In this document: piece by piece, positions 21,747 to 33,775 of the stretch
Layout: each line of letters starts with the position of its first letter
How positions within the stretch are numbered: the first letter of the stretch is position 1
Origin: an uncultured Pseudomonadota bacterium
GTDB taxonomy: Bacteria > Myxococcota_A > UBA796 > GCA-2862545
Length of the DNA stretch: 64,000 bases
Direction of reading: 5' to 3'
Assembly: GCA_903861005.1 (NCBI GenBank)
Contig: CAIOSP010000082.1
Span: forward strand, 1 to 64,000
Program-made: the position numbers and the translations under genes
Notes under the pieces: generated by a model
The model's database searches: none
Seen by the model: the letters and a program-made list of their open reading frames with translations, nothing else
What the model was told of the DNA's origin: nothing

Positions 21747-22016
21747 TCAGGCCTGACGACGACGCGCGGCGAGCAGACCCGCCGCGACCACTAGGCCCGC
21801 GACCGCAGGGCTGAGCGCGTCGGCGTTGCAGGCGCAACCGCCCGTCTCACCCGACAGCGCGGCCGCGCCCAGGCCACCGGACGGGTAGGTGTCCAAGTCG
21901 GACCCGACGTCGGTGTCGGTGGACGCGTCCGTATCCGAGTCGGTGTCCGAGTCCGTGTCCGCCGCCAGGGCAAACGACGGGACGATCAACGCCAGCACAA
22001 GCCACACCGCGCGCAT
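21747..22016 (-). CDS. small MYXO-CTERM-type surface protein with Asp-Ser/Thr repeats
   Basis: 89 residues: signal peptide (cleavage near ALAA), then an acidic DTDSDTDSDT repeat tract, a short Gly/Ser linker, and a C-terminal tail with GGCACN followed by a hydrophobic helix (VAGLVVAAGLLAA) and RRRQA. Gly-Cys-x-Cys plus helix plus Arg cluster is the MYXO-CTERM sorting signal, processed at the Cys by a myxosortase-type protease for surface anchoring. The mature protein is little more than an acidic linker, so it may be a minimal surface spacer or a Ca2+-binding tract. It converges on the aminotransferase gene. Confidence 0.75.
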   Translation of the reverse strand: MRAVWLVLALIVPSFALAADTDSDTDSDTDASTDTDVGSDLDTYPSGGLGAAALSGETGGCACNADALSPAVAGLVVAAGLLAARRRQA

Positions 22017-26740: not shown

Positions 26741-27472
26741 CTACCCCGCGGCCACCGCCCTGCCCGCCACCTCGACGATGTCCGGGTAGTGCATGCCGCA
26801 CTCAGTCTTGGCCGTGCCCGCCCAGCGGCCGGCCCGTTCGTCGTTTGGATCGGCGTCCGCGCTCACCGGGTGGGTGCACGGCGCGCAGCCGATGCTGCGG
26901 TAGCCCTGCTCCAGCAGCGGGTTGTACGGCACGTCCTGGGCGGCCAGGTAGGCGAACACGCGGGCGCGGTTCCAGTCGGCCAGTGGGTTCACCTTCACCA
27001 GCCCGTAAGCGTGGTCCCACTCGACGAGGCTGGTCGAGCCACGGGACGTGGACTGGTCGCGCCGCACGCCGGTGATCCACGCGTCCAGCTCGGACAGGGC
27101 GCCGCGCAGCGGCTCGACCTTGCGCAGCTTGCAGCACGCGTCCGGGTCGCGGTCCCACAGCGCGTCGCCGTGGGTCGCCGCCTGAGCGCGCACCGACTCG
27201 CGCGGGCGGACCGAGCGGATCTGCAGATCGTAGCGCGCTTGGATTCGCTCGCGGAGCTCGTAGGTCTCCGGGAAGAGCAGGCCGGTGTCCAGGAAGAAGA
27301 CCGGCACCGGGCGGCCCAGACCCGCCAGCATGTCGATCACGACCAGCGTCTGCGGGCCGAGCGAGCTGGCGATGGCGATGCGGTCGCCAAACTGATCGGT
27401 GACGGCGCGCAGGACATCCAGCGGATCCGTGAGGCGGGTCAGTTGTTCTGCGACGTGGCGGGTGACGTTCAT
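26741..27472 (-). CDS. cysH: adenylyl-sulfate (APS-type) reductase of sulfate assimilation
   Basis: 243 residues. The enzyme reduces activated sulfate to sulfite with thioredoxin electrons in the cytosol, on the way to cysteine. PAPS/APS signatures: ASSLGPQTLVVIDML (nucleotide loop), FFLDTGLLFPETY, and the C-terminal ECGMH with the catalytic Cys. CCKLRKVEPL together with CAPCTHP gives the CC...CxxC set that binds a 4Fe-4S cluster, so the enzyme most likely prefers APS over PAPS. No cysDNIJ neighbours are visible. Upstream lies a 370-base leader with a Cys-rich leader peptide and terminator, described separately. Confidence 0.9.
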   Translation of the reverse strand: MNVTRHVAEQLTRLTDPLDVLRAVTDQFGDRIAIASSLGPQTLVVIDMLAGLGRPVPVFFLDTGLLFPETYELRERIQARYDLQIRSVRPRESVRAQAATHGDALWDRDPDACCKLRKVEPLRGALSELDAWITGVRRDQSTSRGSTSLVEWDHAYGLVKVNPLADWNRARVFAYLAAQDVPYNPLLEQGYRSIGCAPCTHPVSADADPNDERAGRWAGTAKTECGMHYPDIVEVAGRAVAAG

Positions 27473-27478
27473 CAGGTT

Positions 27479-27579
27479 CTCCGAGGGGGCGTTCGTTTCG
27501 TGGAACGCATCGTCGGAGCCGAACCCCCGACGATGCGCCGGGGTTCGGGGTCCTCTGGACTCGACCTAGGTCGAGGTCC
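27479..27579 (-). promoter_or_regulatory. structured cysH leader with mutually exclusive stems and a possible RBS sequestrator
   Basis: Reading along the cysH transcript: a palindrome (27575-27560, CTCGACCTAGGTCGAG); stem A (27548-27540, CCGAACCCC) pairs with A' (27527-27519); stem B (27536-27527, GCATCGTCGG) pairs with B' (27516-27507). B lies in the A loop, so A and B either form a pseudoknot or exclude each other. CTCCGA (27518-27513) at B' is also complementary to TCGGAG (27484-27479), which contains the cysH ribosome-binding GGAG six bases before the ATG. The pairing is exact; the switching role is inference. Confidence 0.55.
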
Positions 27580-27680
27580 GCACAGACCCGTCCGCCCGGT
27601 GCAGGCAGCACGGACAGGGACAGCACATGGCGGAGGAGAGGAAGCGCATCAGTCAGGGTCCAGGGTCAGGAGAGAGGTCG

Positions 27681-27727
27681 AAAATACACGAAGCCCGCCG
27701 CGGTGGTCACCGGGGCGGGCTTCGTGT
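27681..27727 (-). terminator. intrinsic terminator in the cysH leader (attenuator)
   Basis: On the minus strand, ACACGAAGCCCGCC (27727-27714) pairs perfectly with 27699-27686 across a 14-base loop and is followed by ATTTTC. It lies 37 bases after the leader-peptide stop and about 210 bases before cysH. The 5' arm and the two bases before it (CCACACG on the RNA, 27729-27723) can instead pair with CGTGTGG in the last codons of the leader peptide, giving an antiterminator. Confidence 0.75.
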
Positions 27728-27763
27728 GGATCCCAGAAGGATCAGGCGAATCGGTCAGACGAC

Positions 27764-27835
27764 TCAGCCACACGCACCCGCGCCGGTGCACATACAGGCA
27801 CACGGACAACAGGCGATGGCGGCGAAGGTCTTCAT
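27764..27835 (-). CDS. Cys-rich leader peptide of cysH (23 codons, apparently leaderless)
   Basis: A 23-codon ORF with Cys at positions 9, 10, 12, 14, 16 and 22; the core reads CCPCACMC. Five of the six Cys codons fall within eight codons. A promoter 10 bases upstream leaves only three or four bases of leader, so translation would be leaderless, and no Shine-Dalgarno is visible. The codons sit just before competing stems and a terminator, all upstream of cysH on the same strand. Ribosome stalling at these codons when Cys-tRNA is scarce would favour antitermination. Cys-rich leaderless ORFs of this kind are known upstream of sulfur genes in mycobacteria. It could alternatively be a free peptide, but the layout fits attenuation better. 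Confidence 0.6.
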   Translation of the reverse strand: MKTFAAIACCPCACMCTGAGACG

Positions 27836-27844
27836 GATGGCGGC

Positions 27845-27873
27845 AGTCTATCAGGAGATCCCCGCGTCGCCAA
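27845..27873 (-). promoter_or_regulatory. promoter for the cysH leader transcript
   Basis: On the minus strand, TTGGCG (27873-27868) and TAGACT (27850-27845) stand 17 bases apart. Each matches its consensus at four of six positions. The start site would fall near 27838, immediately before the ATG at 27835, so the first ORF would be leaderless. It lies 16 bases beyond the stop of the upstream lipoprotein gene. Confidence 0.55.
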
Positions 27874-29135: not shown

Positions 29136-31553
29136 CTAGCGACCGACGGGTCGGATCATGCCTTCCACGACACTCGGGCCGCCGAGGTCTTCGGCGCTGT
29201 CGTAGAGCAGCTCGGCCATGTACGGGAAGTTGTGCGCCCAGCCGCCCGGGTCGTTGACCGAGAACTGGTAGTTGAAGGCGGCGCGCATCAGCTCGGGCGT
29301 CCACGACTTGTACGAGTTGGTGCTGACGGCGTCCGCCGGGGCACATGGCTCGCCCAGATCGGTGCCGACGTTGTTCTTGAACCAGTACGGGTTGTTCGAC
29401 GCTCGGCAGATCGGGTGGCCGTTGTCGTAGGCGACGAGCTGAATCTGCTCCATGAGCACCGCCTCGTAGGCGTCGAGCTCCTGGGTCAGCTGCTCGGTGC
29501 CGTCGCCGTCGCCGTCGTAGTCGACGCCGATCCGGTCGAGCCACTTGATGTCGTCGATCTCCTGGATCTGCTGATGGCAGGCGTGGCAGCGCGCGTAGTT
29601 CGCCTGAATGGCGTGCGAGTGGTCGGTGCCGGTGACCGCGTGGCAGTCGACGCAGGCCGAGCCTCCGGCGTGATCTTCCCAGGCGCGCGCGTAGGTCTTG
29701 CTCGGGTACTGGTAGCCGACCTGACCATCGCCGCCCGACAGCGTGGAGCCGGCCGGGAAGTAGTGGATGTTCTTGAAGGCGTAGGTGCCGGTGGCGATCT
29801 GCGCGTCCACCGTGGCCATGGACTCGCGGCCCTGGTGGCAGGTGGCGCAGAGGTTCGAGTAGTCGCCGTAGAAGTTGCGGACGATGCCGCTCGGCAGCTT
29901 CACGCTCGGGACGTTGACCACCGCGAAGTTCGAGAAGTTCTCGTGGCAGGTGTAGCAGTCCATGCCGTTGTCGGGCGTGTCCACCAGCTTGGTGATGCCG
30001 TAGGTCAGGAAGAAGCGGAAGCCCTCGCTGCCGCTGTGGCAGCGCGAGCACGTGGCGGAGACGGCCTCGTCCTCGTCCCAGTGGCGGGCGGCCTCAGACG
30101 ATCCGTTGAAGTGGCTGGCGTCCGTGCGGGCCGCCATGCTCAGGTCCACGGGAAGCGCGATGACCGTGTTGAGGTCGGCGGTGCTGTCGTGCAGCAGCTC
30201 GATCACGTACTTGGCGTTGTGCGCCCAGCTGCCCGGGTCGCGCATCGACACCTGGTAGTTGTAGGCGGCGCGGAGCAGGCGGGGTGTCCACTCGGTGAAC
30301 GCGTTGGCGAAGCCGACCTCGGCCGCGTCGCAGGTGGTGCCCGACGAGTCCGTGTCCTTGAACCAGTAGGGGTAGGCCTCGGTGTCGTAGCAGATGGACG
30401 CGCTGCCGCTGACCGCCGGGTAGTCGCCGATCGCGATGAGCAGCTTGGCCTTCATGCCCTGCACTTCGTAGTACATGCCCTCGGTGCGGTTGCCGTTGCC
30501 GTCGTAGTCCTGGCCGCGCGACGGCAGCTGACGGATGTCGCGGGCGTGAGAGAGATCGGTCACGCCGGCGTGGCAGGTGACGCAGCGGTCAAAGCGGAGC
30601 TGGAGCGAGTGCTGGTCGTGGCAGTCGTCGCAGTGCTCCATCTCGGGCGCGTGACGGAAGCGCCAATCGTAGGTCTCGCCCTCGTACTGGTAGCCACCAC
30701 GAACTTGGCCCGCGAGCAGCGTGGCGCCGGCCGCGTAGTTGTGGATGTTGTCGAAGTGCAGGCTGGTGCTGATGACGTCGTCGTCCACGTTGGCGGACGC
30801 GATCTGCGCGTCGACGCTGTCGGTGGAGGCGCGGCCCTGGTGGCAGGTCATGCAGCGGGCTTCGCCGCCGAGGTTGTCGATGCGCACGCCGGACGGGAAC
30901 ACCACGTGATCCACGTTGTCGGCGGTGGCGTTGTGGCAGGCGGTGCACTCGATCACGCCGCCCGCAGGGTGGTCGCCGTCGGTCTGGTCGACCGCGGTGC
31001 CGTCCGCGCCCATGTAGTCCTGCACGCCCGACGTGGTGTGGCATCGCGCGCACTCCGCGGGGACGACGCCCGTGCTGTCCCAGTGGGTGAACGCAGGCGA
31101 GTTGACGTTGGCGTGGGCCGAGTGGGCCCAGAGGTCGCGGTAGGGCGTGTCGACCGAGATGGACACGCCAAGCTTGCCGCTGACGCCGGTGACGTTGCCC
31201 GTGGCGGTGATGGTGACGGCGCCCGCGCTGAGGCCGTGGACCACGCCCGCGTCGCTCACGGTGGCGATGACCGGATCACTAGACGTCCACGTCCATGATG
31301 TGTCGTCACCGTTGACGGTGTGCGCCGTGAGCGTGGTGAATTCACCCAAGAGCAGCGTGAAGACGCCGTCGATCACGACGACGGGCTCACCGGGCTTGAC
31401 CACGTCGGTGTCGTCGACGGTGGTGTCGGTGTCGACCACGACGGTGTCGGTGTCCACGACGACGGTGTCCGTGTCCTTGTCGGTGGGGTCAGTGCCGATG
31501 CACCCCGCGAGGAGGAGACCAGTCAGCAAGAACAGATGCGGCGCCCGAGTCAT
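29136..31553 (-). CDS. decahaem c-type cytochrome lipoprotein with Ig-like (BIG2) domain
   Basis: 805 residues. Signal peptide and lipobox LLAGC, an Asp-Thr-Asp linker (residues 20-52), a BIG2-type Ig domain (about 55-130, ending in VSIS), then ten CxxCH haem sites: CARCH, CTACH, CMTCH, CDDCH, CVTCH, CSRCH, CYTCH, CATCH, CVDCH, CHACH. The cytochrome part is an internal duplication: each half has five haems, a CHQGR motif, an acidic YDGxGxxTE loop, a YWFK segment and a W-T-P-x-L-x-R-A-x-x-N-Y-Q block. It would transfer electrons outside the inner membrane, probably at the cell surface. It is divergent from the large cytochrome operon across 149 bases, presumably co-regulated. Confidence 0.9.
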   Translation of the reverse strand: MTRAPHLFLLTGLLLAGCIGTDPTDKDTDTVVVDTDTVVVDTDTTVDDTDVVKPGEPVVVIDGVFTLLLGEFTTLTAHTVNGDDTSWTWTSSDPVIATVSDAGVVHGLSAGAVTITATGNVTGVSGKLGVSISVDTPYRDLWAHSAHANVNSPAFTHWDSTGVVPAECARCHTTSGVQDYMGADGTAVDQTDGDHPAGGVIECTACHNATADNVDHVVFPSGVRIDNLGGEARCMTCHQGRASTDSVDAQIASANVDDDVISTSLHFDNIHNYAAGATLLAGQVRGGYQYEGETYDWRFRHAPEMEHCDDCHDQHSLQLRFDRCVTCHAGVTDLSHARDIRQLPSRGQDYDGNGNRTEGMYYEVQGMKAKLLIAIGDYPAVSGSASICYDTEAYPYWFKDTDSSGTTCDAAEVGFANAFTEWTPRLLRAAYNYQVSMRDPGSWAHNAKYVIELLHDSTADLNTVIALPVDLSMAARTDASHFNGSSEAARHWDEDEAVSATCSRCHSGSEGFRFFLTYGITKLVDTPDNGMDCYTCHENFSNFAVVNVPSVKLPSGIVRNFYGDYSNLCATCHQGRESMATVDAQIATGTYAFKNIHYFPAGSTLSGGDGQVGYQYPSKTYARAWEDHAGGSACVDCHAVTGTDHSHAIQANYARCHACHQQIQEIDDIKWLDRIGVDYDGDGDGTEQLTQELDAYEAVLMEQIQLVAYDNGHPICRASNNPYWFKNNVGTDLGEPCAPADAVSTNSYKSWTPELMRAAFNYQFSVNDPGGWAHNFPYMAELLYDSAEDLGGPSVVEGMIRPVGR
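31401..31482 (-). repeat. tandem repeat encoding the Asp-Thr-Asp linker
   Basis: Imperfect 21-24-base units around GACACCGTCGTCGTGGAC (minus strand) recur about four times and encode VVVDTDT-type repeats between the lipobox and the Ig domain of the decahaem cytochrome. Such DTD tracts recur in several lipoproteins of this window and look like surface-exposed spacers; the DNA repeat may vary in length by slippage. Confidence 0.6.
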
Positions 31554-31702
31554 GGACACTCCCTCTCAGGGGGACACAAGTACGTGCAATGAGTGTGCCG
31601 GTCAAGAGACCTCGACGAATGGCCCGCTCCGTGCATAAGCGCACAACCCTCAGGTCGCGCGGCTGGCGCGACGTTACCATGCGCCCGCGAGAATACACGA
31701 CG
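31554..31702. promoter_or_regulatory. divergent control region of the cytochrome island
   Basis: 149 bases between the divergent decahaem gene and the nine-gene operon. A dyad GTGC (31631-31634) / GCAC (31641-31644) and a distant ACACTC / GAGTGT pair (about 31556-31561 and 31596-31601) are visible, but no convincing -35/-10 pair on either strand. This is the only gap of any size in the 12-kb island, so both transcripts must be controlled here. Confidence 0.4.
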
Positions 31703-33775
31703 ATGCGCGCCCAGCTTCCCCTCCTGAACCTGATGTGCGTCCTCCTCATTGGCTGCAACACGCGGCCGGACGGGGTGGGATCGGACACCGACACCGACGC
31801 CGGACAGGCGCGCGGCGCCTTGCGTGTTCACGTCGTCGACGCGGACGGCAACCCCGTCAACGCCGCGTGGGTCACCGTCGCGCCGTACGGCCGAGACGCC
31901 GCGACCAACGTCGATGGCGACGCCACGCTCGAGCGCCTGGCGCCCGGCGCCGCGCACGTCCAGGCCACCGCGCCGGGCTACGTCTCGTCCAGCGCCGACG
32001 TGTCGCTCGATGTGGCTGGCGCGGACGTCCGCGTCACGCTGTCGCCGATCGTCCTTCACGGCGCGACGCTGTCGGGATCGGTGTCGGACCCGTACTCAGC
32101 ACCGGTCGTCGGCGCGATGGTCCTGCTCGACGGATCGCCCGCGGGCACCACCGCGGCGGACGGCACCTTCACGCTCACCGGCCTCGCCGCCGGACACTAC
32201 GCGGTGAACATCGCGCCACCCGACGGCACGAACCTGCTGCCGCAGGACATGGGCAGCATCGACCTGATCACCGAAGGCAAGCTGCGGCTCGACACCACGC
32301 TCCCGGGCCACCCTGGCGCCACGTCCACCTACATCGGGTCGACGTCCTGCATGATCTGCCACCCGGACGAGGGCACGGCGTGGCAGCAGAGCGCGCACGC
32401 CCGGGCCGCGCGGTCCACGGTCGACCTGTCGAGCACCGACATCGCGGACGCGGTGGAGGGCGGCGTCACCGTCGCTCTTAACGGTACTGGCGCCACCGCT
32501 GAGCTGGGCACGGACGAAGGCGGCGCGTGGACGGTCAACGTCCGCGACGGCCACGGCCACAGCACCGGCCCGCTCACCGTCACCGTGGTTTACGGCGCGC
32601 GTCGTCACGGCGCCGCGTTGGCGCTGGACGTCGGCGGTACGCTCACGCTCGCGCCGGTCGTGTGGGCTGGCCCCGGTGAAGGCCTCGGCGCCGAGCAGCC
32701 CGACGCCGGCTTTATCTCCGCGTGGGTCGACTCCTGGCTCCCCGGCGGCACGCTCGCCGTCAGCACGTCCGCCGCGCCACCCGCCGCGCTCTCCTTCGAC
32801 CTGTCCTGCGCGGGCTGCCACGCCTCCGGGTTCAAGGTGCAGTCGACGCTCGGCTCCTACGCGCTCGCGTCGCTCAGCAGCCGCGGCCCTGGCCCCGGCG
32901 TCGGACCTGACGCGGGCGACGACATCGAGCGCGTCGTCGGCTGCGAGGCCTGCCACGGTCCCGGCAGCCGTCATCGTCGCTTTGTCCCGACGAGCAAGGA
33001 CCAGATCTTCAACCCGGCCTACCTGTCCGCCTCGCAGCGCCTCGACGTGTGCGCCGGCTGCCACGAGGCCGCCACCGCCACCGAGCACCCGTTCGCGGAC
33101 CCCGCCGGCACCCCGCTCACCGCCGAGGGCACGCCCAAGGCGCCGTGGACGCTCCTGTCGCTGATCGCGAACGCCACGCCCGTCTGGTGGGAGTCGATCG
33201 ACGCCTCGCGCGTGCGCGCCGATCAGGTCGGCGAACTCCGCTCGTCGCCGCACCGCACGTCGGACTCGCACTTCGCCGGCGCGTGCGAGGACTGTCACCA
33301 GCCGCACGGCAGCGCCTTCAAGGCCTCACTCCGGCATGACCCCTGGGACAACGCGCTGTGCACCAGCTGCCACGCGCTCACGTTCCCGGACGCCGCCGCC
33401 ATCGCCAAGCACTCCGGACACACGGCCGCGTCGAGCGGGGCGTGGGGATCGGCGTCGTGCGTCGGCTGCCACATGCCGCGCTCGGCGGTGGTCGTGCGCG
33501 GAGACGCCAACACCGGCATCGGCGAGGCACGCAGCCACGGCATGCTGGCCTGGACGCCCAATCAGGTGCTCGCCTCGTTCGACGCCGCGGGCGCGTCCAC
33601 CCTGCCCAAGGGTGAGGTGCCCGTCGACGGGTGCATCGACTGCCACGTGCAGCGCGAGGAGGCCGCCAAGCAGACCGGCGGATCCTGCAACTGCCCCCAG
33701 GGTGACGTGACCAAGCGCACCACCTGGGAAGCCCTCAAGGCGTCCTTCGACGCGATGTTCCCGGGTGCCGAATGA
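31703..33775 (+). CDS. octahaem c-type cytochrome lipoprotein with two carboxypeptidase-regulatory-like domains
   Basis: 690 residues. Signal peptide with lipobox LLIGC, a DTDTD linker, then two Ig-like CarboxypepD_reg modules (VHVVDADGNPVNAAWV and GSVSDPYSAPVVGAMV, residues 35-195). Eight CxxCH sites follow: CMICH, CAGCH, CEACH, CAGCH, CEDCH, CTSCH, CVGCH, CIDCH. The spacing is irregular with long beta inserts, as in surface decahaem oxidoreductases of electron-transfer conduits rather than small periplasmic c3 carriers. First gene of the nine-gene operon; its TGA overlaps the next ATG. ATG at 31703 is the natural start of the signal peptide. Most probably an outer-membrane terminal reductase or oxidase module. 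Confidence 0.85.
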   Translation: MRAQLPLLNLMCVLLIGCNTRPDGVGSDTDTDAGQARGALRVHVVDADGNPVNAAWVTVAPYGRDAATNVDGDATLERLAPGAAHVQATAPGYVSSSADVSLDVAGADVRVTLSPIVLHGATLSGSVSDPYSAPVVGAMVLLDGSPAGTTAADGTFTLTGLAAGHYAVNIAPPDGTNLLPQDMGSIDLITEGKLRLDTTLPGHPGATSTYIGSTSCMICHPDEGTAWQQSAHARAARSTVDLSSTDIADAVEGGVTVALNGTGATAELGTDEGGAWTVNVRDGHGHSTGPLTVTVVYGARRHGAALALDVGGTLTLAPVVWAGPGEGLGAEQPDAGFISAWVDSWLPGGTLAVSTSAAPPAALSFDLSCAGCHASGFKVQSTLGSYALASLSSRGPGPGVGPDAGDDIERVVGCEACHGPGSRHRRFVPTSKDQIFNPAYLSASQRLDVCAGCHEAATATEHPFADPAGTPLTAEGTPKAPWTLLSLIANATPVWWESIDASRVRADQVGELRSSPHRTSDSHFAGACEDCHQPHGSAFKASLRHDPWDNALCTSCHALTFPDAAAIAKHSGHTAASSGAWGSASCVGCHMPRSAVVVRGDANTGIGEARSHGMLAWTPNQVLASFDAAGASTLPKGEVPVDGCIDCHVQREEAAKQTGGSCNCPQGDVTKRTTWEALKASFDAMFPGAE

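Follow-up and report, generated by a model that had tools for sequence, protein, structure and literature searches.

A Putative Tandem Ribosome-Mediated Cysteine Attenuator Preceding cysH in a Probable Member of the Myxococcota

Introduction

The window, i.e., the whole stretch of 64,000 nucleotides analysed here, contains only two ORFs of at most 75 codons with at least five Cys codons within eight codons, and both are located directly before cysH, a gene of sulfate reduction. As a control for chance, 582 kb from 40 control regions (both strands) contained six ORFs of at most 75 codons with at least four Cys codons within eight, and a single one with at least five. Classical attenuators of the trp and his type comprise a leader ORF whose control codons specify the amino acid made by the pathway, followed by RNA in which a 2:3 antiterminator competes with a 3:4 terminator. 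The original prediction placed one attenuator before cysH. The attenuator itself is supported by the present analysis, but not as a single device, since 27649-27479 contains a further Cys leader with a switch of its own, and the entire region 27873-27479 very probably acts on cysH as a tandem cysteine attenuator mediated by ribosomes.

The genome from which the window derives (G000) comprises 5.8 Mb with 72% GC. The window is probably of myxococcotal origin, an assignment made partly because a small protein encoded at 21747-22016 (minus strand), with Asp-Thr-Asp-Ser repeats, has by eye a MYXO-CTERM-like C-terminus.

Leader ORF 1 and the Proposed Terminator Switch

The promoter-like hexamers, the ORF, the pairing segments, and the terminator predicted for the first leader were all found by eye at their positions on the minus strand (Table 1). 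The -10-like hexamer TAGACT is followed after 9 nt by the ATG of ORF 1 (27835), and a comparable layout, i.e., TTGnnn, 17-18 nt, TA/CAnnnN, 6-11 nt, and ATG, precedes every first leader in the relatives as well as the leader of the sulfite reductase gene, sir, with a -10-like hexamer located 6-11 nt before the ATG in all first leaders. A scan with the sigma-70 consensus reported no site, a frequent outcome in a genome of such GC content. ORF 1 contains six Cys codons in its 23, as predicted, and five of these fall within codons 9-16, while its mRNA appears to be leaderless, to judge from the promoter spacing. Computational folding, which had been proposed as a check, yielded -78.9 kcal/mol for the ORF 1 leader RNA, far more stable than the mean of dinucleotide shuffles (-59.5 kcal/mol, z -4.3). 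Rfam covariance models provided no family match for the leader above the gathering score and just two chance-level matches to one microRNA model.

Table 1. Positions of the leader elements and of the genes that they precede (coordinates of the window unless a contig is named).
Feature	Position (strand)	Sequence or pairing	Remarks
Promoter-like hexamers	27845..27873 (-)	TTGGCG 27873-27868, 17-nt spacer, TAGACT 27850-27845	Read by eye from sequence
Leader ORF 1	27764..27835 (-)	MKTFAAIACCPCACMCTGAGACG, then stop	23 codons; Cys cluster at codons 9-16; from sequence; identical in congener G001
Segment 2, antiterminator 5' side	27768..27787 (-)	ACCGGCGCGGGUGCGUGUGG	Pairs with segment 3 in a transcript ending before the terminator 3' arm
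Segment 3, antiterminator 3' side	27708..27729 (-)	CCACACGAAGCCCGCCCCGGUG	Overlaps terminator 5' arm
Intrinsic terminator	27681..27726 (-)	CACGAAGCCCGCC...GGCGGGCUUCGUG + UAUUUU	Hairpin 27726-27687
Leader ORF 2	27566..27649 (-)	MRFLSSAMCCPCPCCLHRADGSVRTST, then stop	Five Cys in codons 9-15; identical in G001
Switch 2, segment 2	27584..27603 (-)	UGCACCGGGCGGACGGGUCU	Directly after ORF 2 Cys codons; pairs with segment 3 (27553-27534)
Switch 2, segment 3	27534..27553 (-)		Contains 3:4 arm CCGAACCCC (27548-27540)
Switch 2, 3:4 partner	27519..27527 (-)	GGGGUUCGG	OFF state
Switch 2, 4:5 alternative hairpin	27506..27537 (-)	CGCAUCGUCGG (27537-27527) with CCGACGAUGCG (27516-27506)	11 perfect pairs
SD sequestor	27479..27518 (-)	CUCCGA (27518-27513) with SD UCGGAG (27484-27479)	
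cysH, phosphoadenylyl-sulfate reductase	26741..27472 (-)		243 aa; NCBIfam NF002537 E 3e-79, TIGR00434 E 3e-70, Pfam PF01507
Third Cys leader, before sir of G000	G000:C1 57814-57909 (= L253:915-1010)	MNLTPANAGLFCCCTGCCACCCMRRAGACRV, then stop	Translation type

The predicted pairing segments are present as GCACC (27789-27785), GGTGC (27778-27774), CGTGTGG (27774-27768), and CCACACG (27729-27723). The pairing of the last two in an antiterminator was reproduced in the model, but its length of 7 bp was not, since the modelled span joins 27787-27768 to 27729-27708, as seen with the ribosome at Cys12; nested hairpins included, the pairing of segments 2 and 3 amounts to -44 kcal/mol. The core of the terminator is near-identical in G069, from the same class (GAACCCGCCCCGGTCCCTGACCGCGGCGGGTTTTT).

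The influence of the ribosome was modelled by masking the RNA as far as 12 nt beyond the A-site codon in a transcript that ends before the 3' arm of the hairpin, and by computing how far the 5' arm of this hairpin pairs with the RNA upstream of it. For ORF 1, this pairing is 0.77 both without a ribosome and with a ribosome at codons 9-14, and drops once the modelled ribosome passes Cys16 and covers segment 2. Therefore, the masking of segment 1, which had been held to favour the antiterminator, is not needed in the model, where the decisive element is an uncovered segment 2. Likewise, no protection against antitermination by a 1:2 hairpin in untranslated RNA was found for ORF 1, the value without a ribosome being the same; even RNA free of ribosomes inclines to antitermination in the model, which counts against an attenuator. 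Such a protective hairpin is not universal among attenuators and, thus, its absence is treated as secondary. Moreover, the untranslated state of the leader may be rare, since translation would begin once the leaderless 5' end emerges.

Leader ORF 2 and Predicted Sequestration of the Shine-Dalgarno Sequence

ORF 2 is located between the terminator of switch 1 and cysH, and is followed by RNA able to form two hairpins of which only one can exist at a time. The OFF structure, which combines 3:4 pairing with sequestration of the cysH SD and includes an inner stem of the sequestor (GCGUUC, 27508-27503, with GAACGC, 27494-27489), corresponds to the minimum free energy (-47.7 kcal/mol). The 4:5 hairpin excludes 3:4 and frees the SD, and the state forced into 4:5 reaches -40.2 kcal/mol without segment 2. 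Since the two hairpins of switch 2 exclude each other, and the 3' arm of 4:5 overlaps the anti-SD CUCCGA, i.e., the partner of the cysH SD, the two ORFs appear to form a series, with ORF 1 attenuating transcription and ORF 2 translation.

In an equilibrium model of translation-type leaders, release of the SD is strong for the G057 leader alone and partial for that of G061, and the SD stays hidden at every ribosome position for ORF 2 and the G019 leader, so that a kinetic route would be required for these two. Equilibrium accessibility of the SD is uninformative for ORF 2, G019, and G062 and, thus, the first-step pairing in truncated transcripts was used instead.

Putatively Controlled Genes and Occurrence in Relatives

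The NF002537 and TIGR00434 matches of cysH both exceed their cut-offs. In G000, sir is located on another contig than cysH and is preceded by a third Cys leader, in which the complement of GCGCCGGGG was recognised by eye in CUCCGGCGC, whose alternative partner is the SD region of sir, CGCUGGAG. Thus, G000 contains three Cys leaders, each located directly before a gene of assimilatory sulfate reduction. A pattern search for further Cys leaders in this genome resulted in 56 matches, from which 30 loci were retrieved; apart from these three leaders, the loci examined appeared to be out of frame or within genes, L060 being rejected for the latter reason. No Cys leader was found before a second PAPS-reductase-like gene or before the ATP sulfurylase gene, the latter counting against the attenuator explanation.

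Lack of conservation in related genomes would, by the original prediction, have refuted it; both the clusters of Cys codons and the competing stems recur there before cysH, and before sir in G000, so that the prediction withstood this check. A poly-Cys leader directly precedes cysH in the incomplete congener G001, in G019 of the same family, in G057, G061, and G062 of the same order, and in G069 of the same class. In G336, from another family of the phylum, two tandem poly-Cys leaders with seven and eight consecutive Cys codons (L258:1441-1766), each with its own intrinsic terminator, precede a cysH-cysC-cobA-sir region, in which cysC and cobA were named by eye. Terminators equivalent to that of ORF 1 are, thus, found in G069 and twice in G336, and single leaders of the translation type in G057, G061, G062, and before sir of G000. 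cysH and sir adjoin in most of the relatives that bear leaders.

A match to sir over E 1e-15 was obtained in 8 of the 71 genomes of the class, among which G064, whose three matches fall in shorter ORFs apart from one another, is probably a dissimilatory case. The remaining seven genomes carry a sir of assimilatory type, and six of them show a poly-Cys leader before cysH, sir, or both. The Cys leader is not universal, since G006, from the same family, possesses cysH and sir without a leader before either (L004, L255); its cysH has a related lipoprotein gene upstream, and the leader has apparently been lost or replaced by a different control.

Beyond these genomes, no poly-Cys leader was found directly before cysH in 40 further regions of the phylum, except for L086, which is the G057 contig VGRE01000004.1 of a 'Deltaproteobacteria bacterium', a name assigned by NCBI to Myxococcota and, thus, the other basis for the probable origin of the window, nor in about 80 named loci of Bacillota, Actinomycetota, and other groups. 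The actinomycetotal loci were judged directly before cysH rather than before the first gene of the operon and so provide no evidence against leaders of the mycobacterial type. Matches to the pattern CCCCC in G336 were mostly noise from TGC repeats, and in L277 a weak ORF with CC..CC that overlaps sir was not counted as a leader.

The motif CCTAG, found post hoc, occurs between -2 and +6 nt from the stop codon of the leader in five of the eight non-redundant leaders, e.g., at the ORF 2 stop (27568-27564 region) and after the leader stops in L259, L256, and L258. Its background in these genomes is low (about 0.1-0.2 per kb and strand), and in four of the five the UAG that it contains lies in the -1 frame with respect to the leader. 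In a scan of 379 genomes of the phylum for Cys runs followed by CCTAG, the plausible leader ORFs among the loci inspected were cysH leaders only.

Dependence of Modelled Pairing on Ribosome Position

The model described above was applied to ten leaders, eight of them non-redundant. In all ten, the RNA that immediately follows the Cys codons forms pairs with the first arm (5') of the hairpin downstream, and this pairing reaches 0.56-1.00 with the ribosome at the Cys codons versus 0.10-0.44 past them. The decrease is from 0.77 to 0.21 for ORF 1 (W1) and from 0.70 to 0.15 for ORF 2 (W2), from 0.97 to 0.44 for the sir leader, from 0.94 to 0.29 for G019, from 1.00 to 0.18 for both G057 and G062, from 1.00 to 0.17 for G061, from 0.56 to 0.10 for G069, and, for the two leaders of G336, from 0.87 to 0.34 (G336a) and from 0.90 to 0.42 (G336b). 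Footprints of 8-16 nt leave this picture unchanged. Per leader, 240 dinucleotide shuffles were made of the RNA that starts at the first Cys codon and extends to the arm, and 0-9 of these 240 reached the observed difference (1 for ORF 1, 7 for ORF 2). Over the eight non-redundant leaders, Fisher's combined p is about 3e-9, an optimistic value, since the arms and segment boundaries of the translation-type leaders were picked after inspection, while the four terminator-type arms are fixed by the terminator itself.

The shuffle support of ORF 2 is among the weaker ones, which agrees with an explanation in which only the ORF 1 switch matters, while ORF 2 is either a duplicate that has degenerated or an ORF that serves coupling by delivering ribosomes to cysH. 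The SD of cysH, sequestered at equilibrium for all positions of the ribosome on ORF 2, points in the same direction, as does ORF 2 itself, before which neither a promoter-like layout nor an SD of its own was seen, as in the second leader of G336. Nevertheless, this explanation is rather unlikely, given that ORF 2 retains five Cys in seven codons together with an 11-bp pair of mutually exclusive hairpins, that the whole stretch is identical in G001, that G336 independently carries two tandem leaders, and that translation-type leaders occur singly in G057, G061, G062, and before sir.

Sequence Constraint

Between G000 and G001, the sequence from the leader ATG to the cysH ATG is identical (363/363), the identity beginning exactly at the leader ATG, before which the preceding base differs. 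Elsewhere, the 54 nt immediately preceding the leader ATG show 83% identity, the upstream gene 94.9%, and cysH 98.0% (third positions 232/243). Local recombination is a possible cause, since the identity runs on into a little-diverged early part of cysH. In G057, G061, and G062, conservation extends over the promoter hexamers and almost all of the sequence from the Cys cluster through to the SD, but not over the N-terminus of the leader or the DNA further upstream. For an analysis of covariation, the leaders are too divergent to be aligned across genera and too similar within them.

These comparisons also bear on the explanation that the Cys-rich ORFs encode functional small peptides expressed together with cysH, e.g., binding metals or redox-active and sensing copper or oxidants, with hairpins that are incidental or belong to the terminator of the upstream gene. 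CC and CxC motifs can indeed bind metals, and the terminator hairpin is also located 163 nt beyond the stop of the lipoprotein gene upstream. Outside the Cys cluster, however, the leader peptides share only A-G-A, which recurs at the C-termini in several genomes as a reading of the pairing RNA GCCGGGGCN and, therefore, indicates conservation of RNA rather than peptide. Moreover, the spacing of Cys varies freely (CCPCAC, CCPCPCC, CCCTGCCACCC, CCCCCCC), the genes downstream of the leaders are exclusively those of cysteine synthesis, and the pairing depends on the modelled ribosome position in every leader, which together render a peptide function highly improbable.

Proposed Mechanism

In a tandem cysteine attenuator, transcription would start at or within about 2 nt of the ATG at 27835, and ORF 1 would be translated while emerging. 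When Cys-tRNA is scarce, the ribosome would stall at codons 9-14 of ORF 1, so that segment 2 would stay uncovered and could bind the 5' arm of the terminator, and RNA polymerase would read through. When Cys-tRNA is plentiful, the ribosome would pass the cluster and cover segment 2, allowing the terminator to form. In transcripts that read through, a ribosome stalled on the Cys codons of ORF 2 would let segment 2 of the second switch hold segment 3, so that 4:5 would replace 3:4 and the cysH SD would be free. If no such stall occurs, 3:4 would form and the anti-SD CUCCGA would hide the SD. The third, translation-type leader would control sir in G000 and, since a Cys leader would thereby act on this gene as well, the last two steps of sulfate reduction would answer to one signal. 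The full proposal, i.e., a serial, dual-output attenuator that requires two successive stalls, a Cys-tRNA regulon of cysH and sir in probable Myxococcota, and, in G336, a version with two terminators that is either shared or convergent, is reasonably probable.

The original prediction of a control of sulfate reduction by the level of Cys-tRNA is, thus, supported by the recurrence of leaders before cysH and sir and by the modelled ribosome-dependent pairing. A signal other than Cys-tRNA (sulfide or sulfite, O-acetylserine, or a metal), acting through a protein or an aptamer while the Cys codons tune the speed of translation, would agree with the control of many sulfur genes in other bacteria by CysB, CymR, or SAM riboswitches, but is the least probable explanation, given that Rfam provided chance microRNA-like matches only, that no conserved aptamer-like core is shared across the leaders, and that the control codon specifies the end product of the pathway in every leader.

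Relation to Known Systems

Clustered codons for the end product, a terminator between ORF 1 and cysH, and an antiterminator that depends, in silico, on the ribosome are shared with the trp and his type, from which the region differs in its cysteine codons, in matching no Rfam leader, in its apparently leaderless ORF, and in the translation-level switch that follows.

In mycobacteria, leaderless poly-Cys sORFs are reported to mediate an attenuation that depends on elongation through the Cys codons (Canestrari et al. 2020, via PMC9031893, PMC9094748, and PMC13236596), described as a translation attenuation (PMC13236596); an earlier prediction of such leaders described no conserved terminator hairpins (PMC1262725). 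The leaders analysed here resemble these sORFs in being short and rich in consecutive Cys codons, with a gene of the cysteine or sulfur pathway downstream, and may also share a leaderless start. Unlike the actinomycetotal sORFs, ORF 1 has an intrinsic terminator with an antiterminator, and two leaders are arranged in series. The uORFC-8-2 motif preceding cysS in Rhodobacterales is likewise predicted to be an attenuator with Cys control codons and an intrinsic terminator at its end (PMC8632094). By its description it is set apart by its target, cysteinyl-tRNA synthetase, its two tandem Cys codons at positions 14-15, its occurrence in Alphaproteobacteria, and the lack of a second switch. In the mgtCBR leader of Salmonella, two short ORFs are each proposed to affect stem-loops (PMC3641672), an arrangement similar to that before cysH, although signals and genes differ, and before cysH a single amino acid serves both ORFs, with sequestration of an SD as the output of the second.

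The open-licence literature searched contains no report of Cys leaders in this phylum, of such leaders before cysH or sir in organisms other than actinobacteria, or of two in series. The claim of a new lineage and gene agrees with this search, while the principle of cysteine attenuation itself was already known; what appears to be new is the lineage, the choice of target genes, and the tandem arrangement with two outputs. If the proposal is true, cysteine-specific ribosome attenuation extends to another phylum and to cysH and sir themselves, and one leader design has been reused with two outputs, i.e., a terminator and occlusion of the SD. The tandem layout represents a testable means by which the response to an amino acid might be sharpened in bacteria. 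Such short leaders are easily missed in annotation, and a search for Cys codons combined with the pairing test of segments 2 and 3 could reveal more of them.

Neighbouring Genes

Elsewhere in the window, two large divergent genes, 29136-31559 (minus strand) and 31589-33775 (plus strand), are rich in CXXCH motifs. The product of the former matches cytochrome c7 and MtrC-like multihaem domains, while that of the latter was judged by eye.
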